Positions 1 to 62,680 of a stretch of DNA of 64,000 nucleotides are shown one piece after another; position 1 is the first letter of the stretch; each line of letters starts with the position of its first letter. Source of the stretch: Gammaproteobacteria bacterium (lineage in GTDB: Bacteria > Pseudomonadota > Gammaproteobacteria > Steroidobacterales > Rariloculaceae); NCBI GenBank assembly GCA_022820625.1, contig JAJEFE010000146.1:1-64000 (forward strand), read 5' to 3'. The translations under genes were made by a program, and so were the position numbers. Under the pieces are notes generated by a model. That model saw only the letters and a program-made list of their open reading frames with translations, was not told where the DNA came from and did not search any database.

Positions 1-70
1 CCGATTTGAGCCCGCCAGGGATGGCGGGCGAAATTAAGCCCGCGAGGGCTGTCCGTACACACCCTCACGA
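1..70. repeat. Right half of conserved-core hairpin element (copy A, cut by window edge)
   Basis: Positions 1-37 match the last 37 nt of the 83-nt core seen at 20937-21019 and, in reverse orientation, at 50356-50438. There are two differences from the 50.4 kb copy. The segment contains the second core hairpin (arm 10-17, loop GGGA 18-21, arm 22-29) and ends in TTAA. Sequence from 38 onward should be the site-specific right arm; its partner would lie outside the window. The element is just downstream of the symporter gene that ends at 93. Confidence 0.75.
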
Positions 71-92
71 CGCCCCGACGGAAACCAACAAG

Positions 93-1700
93 CTAAATCA
101 GAGATTCGGTGATCCAGAGACCGATCACGCAAAGCACAAAGAACGCCAGTAACGGATAACTGGCACGGTCGATCTTCCCGGCGACCACATACCACCCCCC
201 TTCCATCAACGGTAGCCCCTCTTCCTCGTACCGCCGAAGCTGCCCCCTGACCGTATAGGGATCGTCTTCATCCCGAAACCCGCCCAGCAGGATGCTCGCC
301 GTCCAGCCCACCGCGATGCTTACGATTCCACCGAGAGCACAGTACCAGGGCCAGGCCACGTCCAGCGTGTACTCCACGTACGCCAGCGCCAAGAATCCGG
401 CGGCCACCCCGATCAACAACCCCTTCTCGTTGGTGTGCCTGGAGAAGAACCCCAGCCCGAACATGGCCAGCTTGGCGCCCACGAAGAACGAACCGACCTT
501 GCTGAGAATCTCGAGAACGGATCCGCCCGAGCGGGTAAAGATGATCGCCGGCACCACCATGAACACCGCCCAGAACAGCGTGAACCACCGCGAAGCGACG
601 AGATAGTGCCGCTGGGACCCGTCCTTCTTGAAGAACTTTTCGTAGAAGTCCAGCGTGGTCACCGTCGCCATGGAGTTCAGGCTTGAATCCAGGCTGGACA
701 TGGCGGCGGCCACGATCGCCGCCGTCACGATGCCCATCAGTCCGGGAAACCCCATCGTGGCCACGAATTCCAGCACGATGAGATTCTCGTTGTCGAACGG
801 CCTGCCGCCGTAGTAGCTGTAGAAGAGGATGCCAAGTCCGAAGAACAGCACGAAGATGAAGAACGCCACGTAGCCCATGAGGATGTAGGCCTTCTTCGCG
901 TCGCCCACCGACCGGGCGGCCAGCGTGCGCTGGACGATCATCTGGTTCACGCCATAGACGACCACGTGGTAAATGGACATGGCGATCACGCCGGTCCAGA
1001 TGGTTCCGACCACCGATGGGTCGATGGTGGTTTCGAAGGGGTTGGTCTTGCCGATCGCCTTGAGCGACTGGAGTGTCTCGTGAAGGCCCCCGGGCAACTC
1101 ACCCAAGAGCAGCACCACCGTGACGATGGCGCCGAAAAACAGGATCCCTGTCTGGATGAAATCGGTCCAGATCACCGCGGATATCCCGCCCAGCATGGTA
1201 TAGGTGACAGCCACGGCGGCAACGATCAGGATCGCGGTAACCACGTCGATTCCGGTGATGAACTCCAGCACCAGCGCCGTCGTATACAGCATGATTCCCG
1301 AGTAGGCGATGTTCCCCAGCAGGAAGACGGCGGACATGACGGTTCGCGAGGTCAGACCGAAGCGCCGCTCCAGGTAGTCGAAAATGGACGCGCAACCGCT
1401 GTTGTAGAAGAAGGGCAGGAACAGCGTTGCAACGATGAAGATGGCGATGGGGTAGTTGATGTGGATGAAGATGACCGAGAATCCATCCACGTATGACCAG
1501 GCCGGTCCACCCAGAAACGTGAGCGCGCCGATATAGGTGGCGACAACCGACACCCCGATCACCCACCAGGGCGTCGTTCGCCGGCCGACGAAGTAATGCT
1601 GTGCGGTCTTGACGCGCTTGCTGAGGAAGTACCCCAGAACGAGCGTACCGACGATGTAGGCAATCAGGATCGCCCAGTTCAGTGTGCCGAAACTGCTGAT
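93..1700 (-). CDS. Sodium:solute symporter (SSS family), non-canonical start
   Basis: Inner-membrane Na+-coupled substrate transporter of about 535 residues with many hydrophobic segments. It is a clear paralogue of the 9663-11273 product along its whole length: both share TTPWW near the N terminus, FLGGPAWSY, and a GATSR/GLTSR stretch. The substrate is unknown; it is last in a run with a TonB receptor, a sulfotransferase and a sulfatase, so it may import a product released by them. Its start is odd. The codon aligned with the paralogue's ATG is ATC (1700-1698), six bases after GGAG. An upstream in-frame ATG (1712-1710, sharing TGATG with the sulfatase stop) is followed two codons later by TAG (1703-1701). 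The first unambiguous ATG is at 1562 and would remove the first transmembrane region. Either ATC initiates, the amber codon is read through, or the gene is damaged. Confidence 0.8.
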   Translation of the reverse strand: MSSFGTLNWAILIAYIVGTLVLGYFLSKRVKTAQHYFVGRRTTPWWVIGVSVVATYIGALTFLGGPAWSYVDGFSVIFIHINYPIAIFIVATLFLPFFYNSGCASIFDYLERRFGLTSRTVMSAVFLLGNIAYSGIMLYTTALVLEFITGIDVVTAILIVAAVAVTYTMLGGISAVIWTDFIQTGILFFGAIVTVVLLLGELPGGLHETLQSLKAIGKTNPFETTIDPSVVGTIWTGVIAMSIYHVVVYGVNQMIVQRTLAARSVGDAKKAYILMGYVAFFIFVLFFGLGILFYSYYGGRPFDNENLIVLEFVATMGFPGLMGIVTAAIVAAAMSSLDSSLNSMATVTTLDFYEKFFKKDGSQRHYLVASRWFTLFWAVFMVVPAIIFTRSGGSVLEILSKVGSFFVGAKLAMFGLGFFSRHTNEKGLLIGVAAGFLALAYVEYTLDVAWPWYCALGGIVSIAVGWTASILLGGFRDEDDPYTVRGQLRRYEEEGLPLMEGGWYVVAGKIDRASYPLLAFFVLCVIGLWITESLI

Positions 1701-9666: not shown

Positions 9667-11273
9667 GGGATCAGTTGCTCGAACAGGAACAGGAACACGA
9701 TCGTCAGCGCGAAGAATCCCAACAACAGGTAGCTGATTCTATCCACCCGGCCGGAAACCAGGTACCAGCCGCCGTCCCGTTCGGGCAGCCCCCGCTCCCG
9801 GAACGCCTTCTGCTGACCCACGATCGAGTACTCGGACCACTCGTCCTGCCGTCCGTCGATCAGCCGGCTGGCCACCAGCGAGATGACGATATTCGAGGCG
9901 CCGCCGATCAGGCAATACCAGGGCCAGGCGATGTCGGTCTGGCTCGCGACGTACCAGATCACCGCGAATCCCACCGCCACCCCCACCAGCAGGCCCCGTT
10001 CCGTGGTCTGTTTCGAGAAGAACCCGAGCCCGTACATGCTGAGCTTGGCGCCGACGAAGTAGGAACCGATCCGCGAGAGCGTCTGCAGTATCGAGCCTTC
10101 GCTCTGGGAATAGACGATCGCGGGAACGATGATCAGCAAGGCCCAGACCACGGTGAAGCCCCGGGTGATCCTCAGGTAGTGTTCGGGCGATTGGCCGGGC
10201 CGGTAGTACTTCTCGTAGAAATCCACGGTGGAAATCGTCGCCAGCGAATTGAACGACGAGTCCAGCGACGACATGGACGCCGCGACGATCGCGGCGGCGA
10301 TGATGCCCATGAGGCCCGGCATCCCGTAGTCGGCGACGAATTCCAGGATGATGGTGTTGCCGTTTTCGAACTCCCGCCCCTCGTAGTAGCCGTAGAACAG
10401 GATGCCCAGCAGGAAGAACAGGAAATAGATGAAGAACGCGCCGAACCCCATCAGCAGGAAGGATTTCTTGGCATCGCCGATGTTCTTCGCCGCCAGCGTG
10501 CGCTGCACCATCATCTGGTTGGCGCCGTACACGGTGACGTGAAAGATCGTCATGGCGATGATCCCCGACCATACGGTCGCCTCGACGGTCCAGTCGAGGG
10601 AGAAGTCCAGTGGGTTCGTCTTGCCCTGGGCCTTGAGGTCGGCGAGGACTTCGCCCACCGGCGCGGGCATTTCGCCCAGCAGGGCGAAGAACACGATGAA
10701 GGCCCCGACGAACAGGACCGCGGCCTGGATCACGTCGGTCCAGATCACCGCCGTGATGCCGCCCAGCATCGTGTACACCAACGCGATGATCGTCACCGCG
10801 ACAATCGCCGTCACGACATCGACCCCGGTGATGAACTGGATGACCAGGGAAGTCGCGTAAAGGATCGCGGCCGAGGTCAGCGCCTGCGAAACCAGGAATA
10901 CCCCGGAAATCACGCTGCGGGACGTCGCGCCGAAGCGCCGCTCCATGTACTCGTAGATCGAGGCGACACCGCTGTTGAAGAAGAATGGCAGGAAAAAAGT
11001 CACCACGATGAAGACCACGATGGGGTAGTTCAGATGGATCGCGATGACCGCAAGACTGTCGGTGTAGGACCACGCGGGGCCGCCCAGGAATGACAGCGCA
11101 CTGACGTAGGTGGCTACCACCGAGACGCCGATCGCCCACCACGGCGTGGTCCGGCGGCCCAGGTAGAAGTCCTCGGCGGTGGCGATCCGCTTGCTCAGGA
11201 CGAAACCGAGCAGCAGATTGAGCAGCACGTAGGCGATGAGAATCGCCCAGTTCAGCGTTCCGAACGTACCCAT
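9663..11273 (-). CDS. Sodium:solute symporter (SSS family), paralogue 2
   Basis: 536-residue inner-membrane Na+ symporter starting MGTFGTLNWA, with the same motif set as the 93-1700 product (TTPWWAIGVSVV, FLGGPAWSY) and many transmembrane segments. First gene of a two-gene unit with the alpha/beta hydrolase. Transcribed divergently from lacI; the gap contains a palindrome (11357-11370) about 85 nt upstream that is the candidate operator. The two paralogues probably carry related organic acids or sugars, but the substrate cannot be read from sequence. Confidence 0.93.
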   Translation of the reverse strand: MGTFGTLNWAILIAYVLLNLLLGFVLSKRIATAEDFYLGRRTTPWWAIGVSVVATYVSALSFLGGPAWSYTDSLAVIAIHLNYPIVVFIVVTFFLPFFFNSGVASIYEYMERRFGATSRSVISGVFLVSQALTSAAILYATSLVIQFITGVDVVTAIVAVTIIALVYTMLGGITAVIWTDVIQAAVLFVGAFIVFFALLGEMPAPVGEVLADLKAQGKTNPLDFSLDWTVEATVWSGIIAMTIFHVTVYGANQMMVQRTLAAKNIGDAKKSFLLMGFGAFFIYFLFFLLGILFYGYYEGREFENGNTIILEFVADYGMPGLMGIIAAAIVAASMSSLDSSFNSLATISTVDFYEKYYRPGQSPEHYLRITRGFTVVWALLIIVPAIVYSQSEGSILQTLSRIGSYFVGAKLSMYGLGFFSKQTTERGLLVGVAVGFAVIWYVASQTDIAWPWYCLIGGASNIVISLVASRLIDGRQDEWSEYSIVGQQKAFRERGLPERDGGWYLVSGRVDRISYLLLGFFALTIVFLFLFEQLIP

Positions 11274-20181: not shown

Positions 20182-20892
20182 ATGCCGGATGATCCCCAGA
20201 CACTGAATCCGGTCCAACGCCAAACGATTCTTGACTGGCTCGATTCGAGCGACGCGGGCATCGTACCCACCCCCGGATACCAGGCTTCGATTCGAATATA
20301 CAAGGGTCCCGCCGGTGACTTTGCCATCAAGGAACCATCGGGTCGGGGATTGCTGAGAGCCCTCAGCAAGGCTGCAATCAGAAGGGAAGCGGACGTTTAC
20401 CGCCGGCTTCAGGGCATCCCCGGAATTCCCGCGTGCTTCGGTTGCCTCGACGACCGCTATCTTGTCCTTGAACACATACCCGGCGATACGCTGCACGCGC
20501 TTGAAAACGAACTGATGTACCGCGAAAAGTTCTTTGCAAAGCTGCTGGAAACGCTCCGGACGATGCACGATGCCGGTGTGGCGCACGGAGACCTGAAGCG
20601 CAAGAAAAACATCCTGGTGGGACCGGCCGAGCAGCCGTACGTGATCGACTTCGGTATTGCAGTACTAGCCGACAATCAGCGCGGATTCCTGTTCGACCTG
20701 GTCCGCCAGGTCGATCGCAACGCCTGGATCAAACACAAGTACCGCGGCCGCACAAAGGAAATCGCGGCCGAAGATGCGCCACTCTACAAACCCATGCGCT
20801 CGGAACGCCTGATGCGACTACTGCGGCCGGCCTGGCATGCAGCAACGCTCCGACGCTGGAGAAAACGACGCCGAAACATGCGCCAAACCTGA
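20182..20892 (+). CDS. Small protein-kinase-fold enzyme (lipopolysaccharide kinase-like)
   Basis: 236 residues with a kinase fold reduced to its core: a beta-3 Lys in FAIKEPSG (~50), catalytic loop HGDLKRKKNIL (~134), and DFG in VIDFGIAV (~155). The HGDLK form, basic C terminus and short length resemble Kdo/WaaP-type or RIO-like kinases rather than Hanks-type kinases, so the target may be a lipid A/core sugar or another envelope molecule. Pairing with a membrane methyltransferase supports a role in lipid or glycolipid modification (inference). Confidence 0.72.
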   Translation: MPDDPQTLNPVQRQTILDWLDSSDAGIVPTPGYQASIRIYKGPAGDFAIKEPSGRGLLRALSKAAIRREADVYRRLQGIPGIPACFGCLDDRYLVLEHIPGDTLHALENELMYREKFFAKLLETLRTMHDAGVAHGDLKRKKNILVGPAEQPYVIDFGIAVLADNQRGFLFDLVRQVDRNAWIKHKYRGRTKEIAAEDAPLYKPMRSERLMRLLRPAWHAATLRRWRKRRRNMRQT

Positions 20893-20906: not shown

Positions 20907-21049
20907 GGCGGCCATACACGGAACAGGCTTGTGAGCGTCGTGTGCGCGGCGCGGGGCCATGGATGGCCAGGAGCGCCGCGCGCCGATCCGAGCCCGCCAT
21001 GGATGGCGGGCGAGGTTAAGCTCACAAGCCTGTTCCGTGTATGGCCGCC
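20907..21049. repeat. Conserved-core, unique-arm hairpin element (copy B)
   Basis: Perfect 30-bp inverted arms (20907-20936 and 21020-21049) enclose an 83-nt core (20937-21019). The arms have no similarity to those of the copy at 50325-50469, while the cores differ at only 7 of 83 positions. The core folds into two hairpins. The first has a GC stem topped by GGCCA-TGGA-TGGCC; the second is GCCCGCCA-TGGA-TGGCGGGC. The core ends in TTAA. It lies between convergent genes (kinase and rplQ), so it could also act as a two-way terminator. Confidence 0.9.
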
Positions 21050-21110: not shown

Positions 21111-21479
21111 CTACTCCGACTCAGGCTGATCCAGAAGCTGCACCACCGCCATCGGCGCCGCATCCCCTGCCCGATATCCGATCTTCAGAATCCTGAGATA
21201 CCCACCCGGCCGATCCCTGAACCGCGGCCCCAACTCGTCAAAGAGCTTGCCCACCGCTACATCGTCGCGAAGCCGCGCGAACGCCAGCCGCCGCCGCGCC
21301 GTCCCGTCCTGCTTGGCCAGCGTGATCAGCGGCTCCGCAACGCGGCGCAACTCCTTGGCCTTCGGCAAGGTGGTCCTGATGGTTTCGTGGCGAAACAGCG
21401 ACGCGGCCATATTGCGGAACATGGCCTTGCGGTGGGCGGAATTCCGCCCCAGCTTCCTGCCGGACTTGCGGTGACGCAT
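21111..21479 (-). CDS. rplQ: 50S ribosomal protein L17
   Basis: 122 residues opening [12 protein letters not shown], the diagnostic L17 start, and containing the [16 protein letters not shown] block. Last gene of the ribosomal cluster, 16 nt after rpoA as usual for the alpha operon. The hairpin element at 20907-21049 lies downstream and may end the transcript. Confidence 0.97.
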
Positions 21480-27823: not shown

Positions 27824-28092
27824 CTAGTGCTCCATCAACCTTATTACGCCGTATCAGCGCGTTCACAAGCGCGCAGATGCGCGACGCCGGCTCGCCGACG
27901 TATTGGGCATACGTCAAGAGACGGCAACAAAGCAGATGCGCGCTTGTGGACGCGCCCTTCGGGTGGCCGCAGGCCCGCCTCTGGCGGCGTTGCGCCCCTT
28001 GACCATGGGCCCACCATGGCCGGCGGGCCGCGCCTTGCCAGGAGCGGGCCTGCGGCCACTGATACGACATTATGAGGTTGACGCAGCACTAG
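27824..28092. mobile_element. MITE-like palindromic element, 269 bp
   Basis: No coding capacity. Terminal inverted repeats of 34 bp (27824-27857 and 28059-28092) match at 28 of 34 positions, and both ends begin with CTAG. Internal structure includes a ~24-bp inverted repeat (about 27857-27880 with 27933-27956, core CACAAGCGCGC) and perfect 16-bp arms (27963-27978 and 28044-28059) around a GC-rich loop. It occupies the break between the ferredoxin gene and rpsH, where rpsN is normally found. Confidence 0.75.
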
Positions 28093-49388: not shown

Positions 49389-50153
49389 TCACTGGTCGGT
49401 TGCCGCTGCTATCGATTGGCGCGTCACGCGCGATTCATCATCCCTGGGTATGACCGTCAGTTGCACGCGACGTTCCATGGCGAGCCCGTCGAGATCGTTC
49501 TCCGCCGCCGACGAATGCTGCTCGCCGTAGGAATTCACGCTGATCCGCTCCGCCGGGACACCGGCGCGAATCAACGTCTCCATGACCGCGGCAGCGCGCT
49601 GCGCGGATAGCAGCTCATTGTGATCGGTCTCACCGCGGGAATCGGCGTAGCCCTCAATGCGCACCAGCATGCCGTCCAGTTCGGCCAGCGCACCCGCCAA
49701 CCGTACCAACCGCCGCTGGGTCTCGTCGGGAAGCGTGTCCTCGTCCGTCCTGAAGAGCACCTGGACATCCAGCGCGTCGCGAACCGCGGCCCGCAGTTGG
49801 CGTGTTTCCTGGCGCGAACGGGACTCCAGTTCCGCCACCTGCGATTCCATGGAAGAAACCTGTTGCTCGGCATCGTTCAGCAAGCCGTCGAGTTCCGTCA
49901 CCCGCGTCTCCGACGCCATCCAGTTCTGCTCGAATTCATCCCGCGCCTGACCCTGCTGGTGGAACTGGTCGCCCAGCCAGGCGCCCACCGCGGCGCCGAC
50001 GATGAATCCCACCGGGCCGCCGGCCGCCGCACCGATGGCCCCGCCGCTGCCGATGCCGATGGTTTCGTACGTGGAAGTCCTTGTTTCGTCCGCTGCCCAA
50101 CCTGCGGTCGAAAACGCGGCGGCAACCAAAAGGACGATTGCGTTTCTGATCAT
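49389..50153 (-). CDS. OmpA-like protein with glycine zipper
   Basis: 254 residues from the ATG at 50153, which starts a signal peptide (IRNAIVLLVAAAFSTAGWA); the longer frame to 50228 has no support. A glycine-zipper segment (IGIGSGGAIGAAAGGPVGF, ~32-50) probably inserts in a membrane. A coiled-coil stretch (~75-125) follows, then a C-terminal OmpA/MotB peptidoglycan-binding domain with IEGYADSRGETDHNELLSAQ and ERISVNSYGE. The layout resembles PdsO-type sortase-associated proteins, but no sortase is here. It follows the ten-gene cluster on the same strand, separated by the hairpin element at 50325-50469. Confidence 0.83.
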   Translation of the reverse strand: MIRNAIVLLVAAAFSTAGWAADETRTSTYETIGIGSGGAIGAAAGGPVGFIVGAAVGAWLGDQFHQQGQARDEFEQNWMASETRVTELDGLLNDAEQQVSSMESQVAELESRSRQETRQLRAAVRDALDVQVLFRTDEDTLPDETQRRLVRLAGALAELDGMLVRIEGYADSRGETDHNELLSAQRAAAVMETLIRAGVPAERISVNSYGEQHSSAAENDLDGLAMERRVQLTVIPRDDESRVTRQSIAAATDQ

Positions 50154-50494
50154 GGCGTTACTCCTCTGTCTGTCTGCCCGTGCTTTCCTGCACGCCGACA
50201 TTGAAGCGCAAACGCCGGTCAACTCCATGATGGATCAGGGCAACGAACGTGGCAAAAATGATGAATTGTGATGGGTGGCTAACCGGCTCCACATCCGAGA
50301 CGTCCACAAAACGCATCCCCCGCTGCGGGCGCGTGTGCAGATACCGCTTGCGCACTTAATCTCGCCCGCCATCCCTGGCGGGCTCGAATCGGGGCTCGGC
50401 GCTCCTGGCCATCCATGGCCCCGCGCCGAGCCCACGACGTGCGCAAGCGGTATCTGCACACGCGCCCGCGGCTAAACTTGCGAATCGCCCGAGA
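50154..50494. other. 341-nt intergenic region holding hairpin element C
   Basis: Between the OmpA-like gene and the last vWA gene. Apart from the element at 50325-50469, I see no gene or clear promoter. The OmpA-like promoter, if separate, should lie within 50154-50324. Confidence 0.6.
50325..50469. repeat. Conserved-core, unique-arm hairpin element (copy C)
   Basis: Perfect 31-bp inverted arms (50325-50355 and 50439-50469) enclose an 83-nt core (50356-50438) that is the reverse complement of copy B's core with 7 substitutions. The arms share nothing with those of B or A. In the first core hairpin, substitutions relative to B keep pairing (G-C to T-A, and T-G to G-C). It lies between two genes transcribed in the same direction. 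Confidence 0.9.
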
Positions 50495-51502
50495 TTAACC
50501 CCGCCGCAGCGTCGGCAGCGCCACGAACGTGCCGCCGTTTCTCTGGCACAGCTCGCGCATCAGGACCGCGTAGCGCGCGGACGTTCCCAGCTGGCCGTCG
50601 AATGCCACGTAGTAGACGGGAAACGCCACCGCGTGGATCCGCACGCGAGGGGTGCCGTCCGTGGCAATTCGGTTGCGCCGGTCCACCTCCCGAACCACCG
50701 CGTCGATGGACCCCGAGGAGAAATCGTCGCTGTAGACATACAGACTGATCTTTTTTTCCGGGTCGTAGAACGTATCGATCGCGGCGAGGATGCCTTCGCG
50801 GGGGCTGGAGTTCGAAAAGACGCGCCAGTTGCGCAACGCATCGATGATCGATTCGCGAATCGTCGGCGTATCGGGGATCCACTCGTTGCGGTAGCTCCTG
50901 AACATGTAGTCGCCCATGTCGTTCAGGACCTGAATCCCCCTGACCTGGGGATAGACCTCAAGCGTTTCGCGTATCTGCTGCTGGACCCGATTCCAGGCGT
51001 ACTGCTGCATGCTCCCGGAAGTATCGATGATGAAGATGATGTACTCGCTGTCCACGGGGATGCCGCCCACCATGTACTCGTCCGGATCGGGCCGGTAGTC
51101 GGCGAGCAGGCGCTGCATCTCCTCCGTGAGACTCTGTCTCGCCAGGACCAGTTCGTTCTGGATCTCCTCGGCCAGTTCAACACCGTCCAGGGAAGCCAGG
51201 AATTCAGCACGGATGCGTTCGAGTTCGTCCTCGAGCTGCGCGATTTCGATCTCGTCGACATCCACCCGCTCGACCGTGGCGCTGCGTTCGCGCGTCACCT
51301 CTTCGGTCTCGCCCAGAATCTCCTCCAGCTCCTGCTCGTACCGGGCGATCAGGCCCTCCAGTTCGACATGGCTCTCTTCCAGGCGGATCGGCTCGAAGAT
51401 CTTGGCGATCACCAGCAACAGAATCACCGCGCCGAATCCGCAGCACACCACGTCCAGGAACGACAGGCTCCCGGTTTCGATATCGCGTCGGGTCTTGCTC
51501 AT
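50495..51502 (-). CDS. vWA protein with TolR/ExbD-like membrane anchor (1)
   Basis: 335 residues from the ATG at 51502, which overlaps the previous stop as ATGA; another ATG lies two codons earlier. One N-terminal helix (~13-34) contains SFLDVVCCGFGAVILLL with Asp17 at its start, as in TolR/ExbD/MotB stators. A long coiled coil (~42-135) follows, then a von Willebrand A domain with a MIDAS motif DTSGSM (D160, S162, S164) that should bind Mg2+. The bulk of the protein is likely periplasmic. It shares the SFLD-x3-CGFGAVIL motif with the next vWA protein. Last gene of the cluster. Confidence 0.82.
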   Translation of the reverse strand: MSKTRRDIETGSLSFLDVVCCGFGAVILLLVIAKIFEPIRLEESHVELEGLIARYEQELEEILGETEEVTRERSATVERVDVDEIEIAQLEDELERIRAEFLASLDGVELAEEIQNELVLARQSLTEEMQRLLADYRPDPDEYMVGGIPVDSEYIIFIIDTSGSMQQYAWNRVQQQIRETLEVYPQVRGIQVLNDMGDYMFRSYRNEWIPDTPTIRESIIDALRNWRVFSNSSPREGILAAIDTFYDPEKKISLYVYSDDFSSGSIDAVVREVDRRNRIATDGTPRVRIHAVAFPVYYVAFDGQLGTSARYAVLMRELCQRNGGTFVALPTLRRG

Positions 51503-52587
51503 GGCCAATCCTCCGAGGGCGCCATCATCGATCCGCCCGTGTCAAGCGCCATCAGCCAGTACGCCGGGGCTGCCGACGGATCCCCTTCCATGGCGTAGAG
51601 AATGATGTTCACCGGCACATTGAACGGCAGCGACCGCCGGGCCCGCTCGAAGTGCCGCACGCGCTCCTCCCCGGTTACGCCCGGCCGGTTGGGCGGGACC
51701 TCTCCCATGGTGGGCAACCCGTCGACCAGCAGGTAGATGTTATCCGGTCTGGGGTCCAGCGGACGCATGGCCGCGAAAGCCGCGTGCAGGCTGGTGGGAC
51801 CCTGCGGTACCGTCTCACCCAGTTTCTCCACCGCCGCATCGAGCTGGCTGCCGTCGACGATGGTATGCCATGCCGTGCCGTCTCCATCCAGCAACGACCA
51901 GGCCGTGTCGTTGAAGGCGAAAATCTGGATCTCCGTGCCGGGGGGTATCTGGGTCGTCAGCCAGTCGAGGGTATTCACCACCTGGCGCCACTTGGGCGCC
52001 TGCAGTTGCTGCTCTTCGCTCATGTTGCGGCGCCGGAAGATGTTGACCACCGTGCGGTCCAGCATGCTGGTGGAGGCATCGACGAGAATGACCACGCGCT
52101 GCCCGCCCATTCGCAGGCCCGTCAGGTATTGACGATTGCCTTCACCGGTGAAGCCTCGCAGGCGATCGCCGGCAATCTGCGGCGTCTGGGCGTCGGCCAG
52201 GCGCTCGGTTTCCGCTTCCAGTTCCTCCAGTTCCGCGCGCAGGCGCTCGATGATCTCGTCCCTCGTCGAACTGTCCGCGTTGATCGCGTCGGACTCCTCC
52301 TCGATGTTGCGGATTTCGGTGACGATCTGTTCCCGCCGGTCCCTGAGAATGGACCATTGCTCGATCAGGCGAACCAGGTCCTCCTTCATCTCGACCAGGT
52401 TTCGGCGCCCGGTGAGCACCTTGAGTTCCATCCGGTCCACTTCGCTGGCCAGGTCGTCCAGGGTATCCTCGCGGCGAAGGTCGATATTGGCGTTGATGAT
52501 CATGAAGAACAGGATCACCGCCCCGAATCCGCAGGTCATCGCGTCCAGGAAGGACAGCGAAAAGACGTTCATCTGCTTACGGGCCAT
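51499..52587 (-). CDS. vWA protein with TolR/ExbD-like membrane anchor (2)
   Basis: 362 residues from the ATG at 52587, preceded by GGTGGAGG and lying 11 nt inside the end of the FHA gene. N-terminal helix (~12-33) with SFLDAMTCGFGAVILFF and Asp15, a coiled coil (~40-135), and a vWA domain with MIDAS residues in LVDASTSML (D170, S172, S174). Paralogous in plan to the following gene, suggesting a heterodimeric partner set for the TolQ/MotA-like channel three genes upstream in the transcript. Confidence 0.82.
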   Translation of the reverse strand: MARKQMNVFSLSFLDAMTCGFGAVILFFMIINANIDLRREDTLDDLASEVDRMELKVLTGRRNLVEMKEDLVRLIEQWSILRDRREQIVTEIRNIEEESDAINADSSTRDEIIERLRAELEELEAETERLADAQTPQIAGDRLRGFTGEGNRQYLTGLRMGGQRVVILVDASTSMLDRTVVNIFRRRNMSEEQQLQAPKWRQVVNTLDWLTTQIPPGTEIQIFAFNDTAWSLLDGDGTAWHTIVDGSQLDAAVEKLGETVPQGPTSLHAAFAAMRPLDPRPDNIYLLVDGLPTMGEVPPNRPGVTGEERVRHFERARRSLPFNVPVNIILYAMEGDPSAAPAYWLMALDTGGSMMAPSEDWP

Positions 52588-61429: not shown

Positions 61430-62680
61430 CTATTGAGCTATGATCTTCCTGTACTCGTTGTATTCATCCCAGAGGGCCGCCCGCAACAGCGGATCCTCCT
61501 CCTTGGTGGCCGCCTCGCAAAGCTGCCGGGCAACCTTGTCCGTGTCCTCGCATCCCTCGACGGGGGGAGGCGCTTCCTCCGGCAATTCGGCTCGCGCGAG
61601 AATCGGCCGCCGGCTGGCAGGGTCGTTGCCGCCACCGCCACCAGCGGACCCGCCGGTGGGCACGTTGCCGCCGCCATCGGCGCCACCGCCCGGCATGGAG
61701 CCGTCTCCACCGGGCACGCCGCCCGCACCGCCGAAGCCCTCGTCGGCGGCAGAGCCTATGCCGCCCCTGGCGATGGCCTCCTGCTCGGCGCCCATGATTT
61801 CGTCGAAGTCTTCCAGGGATTCGTTGAAGATACCCTCAGCGTCCGATACGCGGCCCGCTACGCCGGTGCCGCCTGCGCCGCTGCCGGGCCAGGCGCCTTC
61901 CTCGCCTCCAGCGCCCGCCGAGTCGCCGCCGAACCCGCCGTCACCGGTCTCCTGACCGCCGCCCGCCTGACGGGAATCGCCGCCCTGACCGCTGCCGTCT
62001 TCGCCGCCCATTCCACCGTTGCCGGATTCCCCGCCACCGGCCTGACGCGAGTCGCCGCCCTGGCCACCCTCTTCGCCGCCGTCACCGCCCGGCATGCCGT
62101 CCTGTCCGCCTCCTCCTTCCTGGCCTTCGCCGCCTGCGCCCTGGCCACCGGCCTGACGTGAATCGCCACCCTGACCGTCTCCGTCTCCTTCCTGACCTGG
62201 AGTACCGCCCATTCGATCACCTGACTGGCCGTCACCGCCATCGCCCTGACCGCCCGCCTGCTGACCCTGCTCGCCCTGCTGACCACCGGAGGGGAAGGGG
62301 AAACCACCGCTCGGTGAGGGTAAGCCGCCGCTGGGGGAAGGCATCCCACCACTCGGCGAGGGCATCCCGCCGCTCGGTGAAGGCATACCGCCACTCGGCG
62401 AGGGCATACCGCCACTCGGTGAAGGCATACCGCCACTCGGCGAGGGCATACCGCCACTCGGTGAGGGCATACCGCCACTCGGTGAGGGCATACCGCCACT
62501 GGGCGAGGGCGGTGGCGGCATTCCGCCGCTCGGTGAGGGCATCCCGCCGCTGGGCGAAGGCGGTGGCGGCATTCCGCCGCTGGGGGGCGGGGGCACCGTT
62601 GACTGGCTCTTGCAACCCAACAGGAGTACAGCGCCTGCGCAAACCAACAACAACCTGAAAGGGATGTTCCCGAGACGCAT
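61430..62680 (-). CDS. Repeat-rich lipoprotein (PSPSGGM heptads and Gly-rich region)
   Basis: 416 residues with a lipobox LLLGC (Cys23). Residues ~30-135 are about a dozen copies of the heptad PSPSGGM, encoded by 21-bp tandem repeats (~62290-62590). A long Gly/Gln/Asp/Glu region follows, with three GGDSRQAGG units. The C-terminal ~120 residues are non-repetitive and carry two cysteines (CEDTDKVARQLC) that could form a disulfide. It probably forms a flexible tether from a membrane to the periplasm or cell surface. First gene of the cluster. Confidence 0.75.
   Translation of the reverse strand: MRLGNIPFRLLLVCAGAVLLLGCKSQSTVPPPPSGGMPPPPSPSGGMPSPSGGMPPPPSPSGGMPSPSGGMPSPSGGMPSPSGGMPSPSGGMPSPSGGMPSPSGGMPSPSGGMPSPSGGLPSPSGGFPFPSGGQQGEQGQQAGGQGDGGDGQSGDRMGGTPGQEGDGDGQGGDSRQAGGQGAGGEGQEGGGGQDGMPGGDGGEEGGQGGDSRQAGGGESGNGGMGGEDGSGQGGDSRQAGGGQETGDGGFGGDSAGAGGEEGAWPGSGAGGTGVAGRVSDAEGIFNESLEDFDEIMGAEQEAIARGGIGSAADEGFGGAGGVPGGDGSMPGGGADGGGNVPTGGSAGGGGGNDPASRRPILARAELPEEAPPPVEGCEDTDKVARQLCEAATKEEDPLLRAALWDEYNEYRKIIAQ
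62285..62590. repeat. 21-bp tandem repeat within a lipoprotein gene
   Basis: About a dozen in-frame 21-bp units (one form: ggtgagggcataccgccactc) encode PSPSGGM. Copy number is likely to vary by slippage without frameshift because the unit is a multiple of three. Confidence 0.8.

Follow-up and report, generated by a model that had tools for sequence, protein, structure and literature searches.

A dispersed REP/MITE-like repeat whose sense strand folds as a three-way junction with two GGA-loop hairpins

The 64,000-nucleotide stretch of DNA analysed here (the window) carries copies of a dispersed, REP/MITE-like repeat of about 150 nt, the sense strand of which folds as a three-way junction composed of an outer stem of some 30 bp (P1) and two hairpins with GGA loops (P2 and P3). 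The fold covaries, copies are present or absent at collinear sites, the two arms of P1 change in pairs, and cores differ in type and orientation between genomes. Three further steps complete our reading, namely, in falling order of confidence, an exchange between arms, selection on the sense strand as RNA and docking of a CsrA-type protein, and for the reading as a whole with these steps included we put the chances at about even. The general kind of element is already known, since it is that of REPs and MITE-like palindromes, including CGTC-tagged REPs without a transposase.

The copy at the left edge of the window bears on a specific prediction. The sequence-only reading had taken positions 1-37 for the 3' end of a core and position 38 for the start of an arm, and had placed the other 46 nt of core, preceded by the inverted arm, to the left. 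Both assignments within the window are correct: CCGATTTGAGCCCGCCAGGGATGGCGGGCGAAATTAA matches the last 37 nt of the 83-nt core found whole in copies 2 and 3 (Table 1), and the arm starts as GCCCGCGAGGGCTGTCCG. At up to 3 mismatches this arm word matches the window once, at position 38, and because 0.40 matches are expected by chance the word by itself proves nothing; the hairpin word GAGCCCGCCAGGGATGGCGGGC gave 3 window matches at the same tolerance and 0 in 100 shuffles. The window corresponds to positions 1-64000 of contig C109 of genome G000, with window base 1 being contig base 1. A copy is thus cut at the edge as had been claimed, but the edge is a contig end and not an arbitrary cut, and what had been counted as a third copy is one of at least 40 in the genome.

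Since nothing lies to the left of base 1 on C109 itself, the upstream check was run via C108, a contig of the same genome that opens with the reverse complement of core bases 1-37, followed by an arm. The 34-nt arms of C108 and C109 are identical letter for letter, and a search of the whole G000 genome for the arm start returned exactly two places, C109:38 and C108:38. Because C108 starts with the reversed core 1-37 and the same arm, C108 (-) joined to C109 (+) reads arm-37 nt-gap-37 nt-arm, and placed head to head the two contigs hold 74 of the 83 core bases, with 9 unread. The whole inverted arm and 37 of the 46 predicted core bases are therefore accounted for within G000. All 46, including the 9 bases unread in G000, are present together with the inverted arm in a sister species of the same genus (G005, L080), where the site is intact on one contig and is flanked by 700 bp upstream that are 99.3% identical to C108 and 700 bp downstream that are 94.9% identical to C109. 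The prediction for the edge copy is therefore confirmed on two independent grounds, C108 and the G005 orthologue. A chance palindrome or an assembly artefact at a contig end would fit the position of the edge copy, and 10 of the 45 listed own-genome BLAST matches touch a contig end or lie within 25 nt of one. However, whole copies are found inside contigs and the edge site is intact in another genome; the G005 orthologue refutes this explanation, and we give it practically no weight. Two further contig-split copies of G000 (C30/C154 and C23/C37) can be rejoined by arm identity, and their flanks lie side by side in another genome, G004.

Table 1. Copies of the element in the window and the genes next to them
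Feature	Position	Strand	Remarks
Copy 1, core, last 37 nt	1..37	+	end of CGAT; P3 hexaloop AGGGAT 17-22; linker TTAA 34-37; missing left part on C108; whole in G005 L080
Copy 1, right arm of outer stem P1, 34 nt	38..71	+	identical to C108 arm
Copy 1 neighbour, sodium:solute symporter (PF00474)	93..1562	-	3' end faces element
Copy 2 left neighbour, protein-kinase-like (PF00069)	20182..20892	+	ends 14 bases before arm
Copy 2, left P1 arm, 30 nt	20907..20936	+	100% complementary to 21020-21049
Copy 2, core, type A, whole (83 nt)	20937..21019	+	P2 loop ATGGAT 20959-20964; P3 loop ATGGAT 20999-21004
Copy 2, right P1 arm	21020..21049	+	
Copy 2 right neighbour, ribosomal protein L17 (PF01196)	21111..21479	-	convergent with kinase-like gene
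RNA polymerase alpha gene, behind L17	21496-22506		polymerase-alpha/L17 gene pair
Copy 3 downstream neighbour, OmpA-family (PF00691)	49389..50228	-	
Copy 3, right arm	50322..50355	-	
Copy 3, core, type A, whole (83 nt)	50356..50438	-	P2 loop 50411-50416; P3 loop 50371-50376
Copy 3, left arm (5' on sense strand), 34 nt	50439..50472	-	97% complementary
Copy 3 upstream (sense) neighbour, VWA-like (PF00092, below cut-off)	50495..51508	-	ends 22 bases before arm

The window also holds repeats of other kinds. At 62254-62560 there are 21-nt periodic repeats, with nine 105-nt registers that are 62-100% alike to the reference. Direct repeat pieces of 71-73% identity lie 9573 bp apart at 1091-1619 and 10664-11192, and because the first piece falls within the symporter gene, the other probably marks a second symporter gene. 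A long imperfect inverted repeat at 27963-28059 (46-nt arms, 72%, 5-nt loop) is unlike the element.

The three-way junction is shown by covariation in an alignment (A3) of 22 ungapped 151-nt copies. Of its 1276 cells, 97.8% are paired, and 37 of the 58 pairs have changes on both sides; both-side-changed cells number 207 against a shuffle mean of 49.2, and sliding the partner by one base lowers pairing to a third. P1, the outer stem between the arms, accounts for 30 of the pairs, 29 of them with both-side changes. P2 has an invariant GTCG/CGAT opening, a bulged T and a long stem (15 pairs before its internal loop), then a GG/AGGA internal loop and a hexaloop, and P3 has covarying outer pairs, a GAG/CGA step of the tandem G.A type (in some copies the paired form GAG/CTC) and a hexaloop. 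The linker TTNA, and GTCG with CGAT, form the conserved junction. A second core type, B (for example L036, L037, L039 and L040), has its junction and loops in common with type A. Diverged copies from other families have for the most part retained GTCGT, CGAT, TTNA and both GGA loops through changes in the stems; copies in G076 have GGCGT in place of GTCGT.

By a strict test, the loop pattern CA(N)GGA-N-G is present in 210 of 220 hairpins (113/118 genus, 97/102 order), and by a lenient one, any GGA in a loop closed by at least 2 pairs, in 219 of 220. The position preceding GGA is unconstrained: 114 genus loops picked out by a separate loop pattern have T in 66 cases, G in 37, C in 9 and A in 2, and in 22 of the 51 P2 loops of the order set the base is missing, giving AGGAC. 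These proportions come from copies chosen for having a GGA in the core and matching pairs at a minimum of 12 (genus) or 14 (order) of the first 20 arm positions, so that arm purity and one of the two GGA loops were partly selected for. The genus rows comprise 118 hits in fetched loci of three genomes, a few places being counted twice because some loci overlap (L004/L042, for instance); 59 complete copies passed the filters, 52 were kept after weak-armed ones were set aside, and 47 remain without near-duplicates. Two features of individual copies were also seen. GTAG stands at the outer foot of the left arm in L010, L018, L019 and L023 of G000, recalling GTAG REPs, and other copies have AGAG, GGAG or CGAG there. 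Truncated 5' halves, consisting of the left arm with part of the core or of the left arm alone, lie directly upstream of whole or broken copies in L044 (1405-1444) and L055 (1404-1446) of G005 and in L210 of G004.

The core gave 45 listed BLAST matches in G000 at E <=10 and 40 at E <=0.001, five of the 45 being weak reverse matches inside copies already listed. The copy number of at least 40 is a lower bound because 40 of the 74 G000 candidates were scored; in the order search up to 21 per genome were scored. Within the genus, core BLAST of 7 genomes found the element in three (at least 40, 30 and 42 matches) and no element in the four smaller ones. A covariance model (R1) detected it in 19 of the 147 order genomes sampled, spread over 10 of 55 genera, and matched 7 of 369 sampled genomes of the class, of which two (G000 and G012) belong to the order. 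When the folds of class matches were judged by eye, G469 was a clear member, G236 had a related junction with GGA loops and G357 was equivocal; G362 and G433 look like chance palindromes. The G236 loci, from another family of the class (L311, L316, L319, L321 and L323), hold long-armed junctions of a related kind, with two hairpins whose loops are mostly of the GGA type, built on a different junction sequence. Beyond the two sister genomes, a sequence-pattern search of the collection picked out nine records, in which R1 recognises the element once clearly (L188, 126 bits), once weakly (L207, 39 bits) and in none of the other seven. The L188 copy, at 210-360 of JAJDWF010000062.1, scores as a full element in a record labelled Dehalococcoidia (jk18x22bins.99), and as this MAG label belongs to the same naming series as that of G005, a binning error or a transfer is indicated. 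Searching 7 loci that contain whole copies against Rfam 15 (E <=1) yielded a tRNA elsewhere in L007 and nothing for the element.

The arms remain paired while their sequence changes. Watson-Crick pairs make up 1557 of the 1591 arm pairs counted in the 59 complete genus copies, the rest being 15 G.T, 4 A.C and 15 other, and despite this pairing the arm sequences differ widely from copy to copy as variants of a consensus. The 51 order copies gave 1020 Watson-Crick, 32 G.T, 4 A.C and 38 other pairs, 8 of the copies yielding no arm pairs and the stem counts ending where pairing decays. Comparison of 11 orthologous site pairs revealed 35 paired arm changes that hold pairing against 10 single changes. 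The 35 consist of 18 double transversions and 17 double transitions, and a G.U is gained or lost in 6 of the 10 single changes. These 11 are the pairs with readable arms, contig-end cuts, replaced inner arms and indels having been left out (L010/L075, L029/L074, L018/L076 and L013/L221 are examples). For example, the edge copy differs from its G005 orthologue by paired changes from A-T to G-C and from G-C to T-A, and copy 2, at 20.9 kb, has the same arms as G005 L211 bar three adjacent paired changes. Some of the paired changes may have arisen through conversion by other copies and not through new mutation.

Cores also differ between orthologous sites. The core type (A or B) differs at five sites with at least the outer arm kept: both flanks are matched for copy 2 (type A) and G005 L211 (type B) and for L039/L118, and one flank is matched for L013/L221, L037/L081 and L040/L058. 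The core also lies in opposite orientations, with respect to the flanking DNA, at three sites. The cleanest case is G004 L100 against G005 L085, where collinearity extends across 3.8 kb but the inner 144 bp run the other way; the others are L099 against L009/L030 and L116 against L074, the L116 element containing a run of N.

These differences probably reflect an exchange between arms at the DNA level, by polymerase template switching or arm-arm recombination, that would keep the arms complementary and flip the core, together with gene conversion that would swap cores between copies. Template switching is described as homogenising the arms of inverted repeats and inverting the spacer (PMC8604942), and has been proposed to maintain RNA hairpins and stems (PMC8794818). 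Arm homogenisation and core inversion are thus the described outcome, and our observations fit template switching, although RecA-type recombination between arms could produce the inversions equally well from the same data. The likeness to the repeats of those two reports lies in arm homogenisation and spacer inversion; as described there, they are found in yeast genes and RNA genes and have short spacers, whereas here a bacterial repeat family has a structured spacer of 83 nt. Arms could instead be kept paired by RNA selection alone, through point mutation followed by compensation via G.U, without template switching. Such selection would account for G.U being tolerated more than A.C and for the single same-site changes that create or abolish a G.U. 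However, double transversions, for which there is no G.U intermediate, account for 18 of the 35 paired changes and argue against it; moreover, G.U makes up only 47 of the 2685 counted pairs, and cores invert. We consider RNA selection alone very improbable.

The exchange between arms would act on DNA, and several features distinguish the two strands. Across genus and order copies the arms have 47 G.T against 8 A.C (p = 8e-8), a T.G pair occurs in P2 in 11 of 22 A3 copies and A.C never does, and only the sense strand has the invariant G-T closing pair and the tandem G.A step. This asymmetry fits selection on folded sense RNA, or strand-biased mutation. That selection acts on the sense strand as RNA, at transcript 3' ends, seems to us somewhat the better bet. 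Gene neighbours, taken from codon-scored ORFs and not from a gene finder, could be classed for 42 of the 59 genus copies, the remaining 17 lacking a called gene on one side or overlapping an ORF. They were convergent in 20 cases, tandem in 18 and divergent in 4; for 41 order copies the counts were 23, 18 and 0, the other 10 of 51 having one side missing. For comparison, 62 of 321 gene pairs are convergent in the sampled DNA of G094, one of the genomes carrying the element. Genus copies often lie within some 60 nt of a gene end, and the upstream gap is longer in G094. In tandem cases, the element has the same sense as the preceding gene 8 times out of 18 in the genus and 6 times out of 18 in the order, and this lack of sense preference means that a cis role in mRNA is not supported. 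For G094 a replication-strand bias was rejected, 19 copies falling about evenly, by our reading, on a weak GC-skew map from 20 sampled stretches.

The same context could point to a bidirectional 3'-end hairpin, that is, a terminator or mRNA 3'-end protector between convergent genes, in which the long perfect stem is functional and the loops are incidental. The excess of convergent neighbours over the G094 figure favours it, as do copies 2 and 3 in the window, which begin 14 and 22 bases after a gene end, and a symmetric stem would work in both directions. On the other hand, it leaves unexplained why the GGA loops are kept through stem change, the element is absent at collinear sites of sister species, and the T-run of intrinsic terminators is lacking: in none of 54 copies is the right arm followed by TTTT within 10 nt, and AAAA precedes the left arm in 1 of 54. 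We rate a 3'-end hairpin of this kind unlikely.

Copies differ in presence as well as in sequence. Copy 3, at 50.3 kb, is absent at the collinear G005 site L223 (210 bp versus 52 bp), the L082 copy is absent from G000 and G004, and the L035 copy is absent from G004. Among the inspected sites, the empty site could be defined to the base at L035 alone, where the junction is exact and the copy has a 5-bp direct repeat; the L082 and copy 3 sites are empty, but the intergenic DNA has diverged. Flanks of 52 copies showed no target-site duplication, the mean longest shared word being 4.04 against 4.12 in shuffles. A transposase was sought as Y1_Tnp (PF01797) and among the ORFs between three inverted-copy pairs; PF01797 gave no match in any of the 7 genus genomes, and the control rang in 5 of 14. 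The three inverted-copy pairs, in G005 L064, L076 and L089, bound segments of about 3 kb and have a common arm sequence. An autonomous transposon was rejected for these segments, which by our reading of their translations hold TonB-receptor-like, transport-type and oxidoreductase-type genes and no transposase. A longer unit in G094 was likewise rejected, because the similarity upstream, which extends for some 400 nt, seems to come from other repeats present in both orientations. In L270-L284 of that genome, the region 120-400 nt upstream of the core contains other dispersed repeats in both orientations, including GGCTGAAGCCGCTCCCAC-like units.

The main rival to our reading is that the element is selfish palindromic DNA only, its folded single strand being the substrate of a hypothetical transposase or recombinase, as REPs are for RAYTs, with no host function. 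The GGA loops and the GTCG/CGAT/TTNA junction would then be enzyme recognition marks. The patchy distribution in genus and order, the absences at collinear sites, the scarcity of divergent neighbours (4/42 genus, 0/41 order), which spares promoters, and the lack of sense preference relative to genes all agree with this. Against it stand the lack of a Y1_Tnp match, the lack of target duplication above shuffled flanks (L035 alone having its 5-bp repeat), the ordinary genes in the 3-kb segments and the fact that arms keep co-evolving after insertion. Selfish DNA is a possible explanation that we nevertheless regard as doubtful.

If the folded sense RNA is what is selected, its loops suggest a reader. 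The CsrA SELEX site is RUACARGGAUGU, mostly in six-base loops, CsrB repeats read CAGGA(U/A/C)G and the sites form an ANGGAN hexaloop; the CsrA dimer has two RNA-binding surfaces (PMC7652899 and PMC3791407). The element loops fit the CsrA/RsmE site pattern, with A-N-GGA-N in a hairpin, and each copy has two. As in the CsrA, RsmA and RsmE hairpins described for CsrB, RsmZ and SELEX RNAs, the hexaloop is closed by C-G and two sites lie close together. Whereas CsrB or RsmZ is one sRNA gene, the element consists of dozens of dispersed copies with two candidate sites each in a fixed junction. The paired A-N-GGA-Y loops may thus be recognised by a protein, most likely CsrA, for which the copies would serve as docking or decoy sites. 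A CsrA gene is present in 7 of 7 genus genomes, and the G000 protein scores as a normal CsrA in Pfam. However, co-occurrence was rejected as support, CsrA being found in 14 of 19 element carriers and 115 of 147 order genomes (Fisher p = 0.56), and three carriers that are 94-96% complete and have 1-2 copies each (G022, G058 and G141) have no CsrA by two models (best 15 bits, cut-off 70). Because CsrA is no commoner in carriers and three carriers have none detected, we name it only tentatively, as the best candidate for the reader of the loops. A more elaborate version is a long shot: the element would be a recombinase-free invertible RNA element in which each copy presents a pair of CsrA-type GGA hairpins on one strand, core inversion by template switching would toggle their display in the neighbouring transcript, and the 40 or more copies would together supply at least some 80 movable CsrA sites across the genome.

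Among described repeats, the closest are the CGTC- and GTAG-tagged REPs (Di Nocera et al. 2013, PMC3733652), which are likewise dispersed palindromes that lie 3' of genes and between convergent genes with a patchy distribution. In that account, CGTC REPs have an 8-9 bp stem starting AT/AT, a loop of 4-5 nt and a CCA tail; they have no dedicated transposase, and some REP dimers are nested inside longer palindromes, as in H. neapolitanus and A. variabilis (PMC3733652). The placement of the element agrees with that of CGTC REPs, as it lies 3' of genes and between convergent genes with no associated transposase gene found. CGTC itself is invariant at A3 columns 34-37, but there it is paired, providing the last P1 pair and the first P2 pairs, and no unpaired CGTC tag stands at one end of the A3 copies. 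P2 starts GTCG/CGAT rather than AT/AT, has 15 pairs before its internal loop and is followed by no CCA tail. Unlike REPs, which are 20-40 nt long as described there, the element is a three-way junction of about 150 nt with GGA loops, locus-specific arms and core inversion. It also lacks the companion of a GTAG REP with a RAYT, the Y1 transposase being found in 0 of 7 genus genomes.

Like MITEs, the element is short, holds no gene, has inverted ends and is present or absent between species. Its ends are terminal inverted repeats as in a MITE, but the arms vary in sequence among copies, the 52 copies gave no sign of a general target duplication, and no parent transposase was found. Integron attC sites are recognised through the structure of a folded strand, and were considered as an analogy for this reason. 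No description of such a family was contained in the portions of the literature searched, which include PMC8632094 and few subscription journals.

The arms act as locus barcodes, which makes them practical for rejoining contigs broken at the hairpin. If the GGA loops bind CsrA, the element would be a mobile, dispersed form of CsrA site. In any case, the family shows with unusual clarity how the two arms of an inverted repeat correct each other in nature. How long RNA stems stay near-perfectly paired while their sequence changes is a standing question for which real site-by-site data are now available, and because sister-species site pairs display paired double changes, core swaps and inversions in one family, the question of stem maintenance can be tested here.
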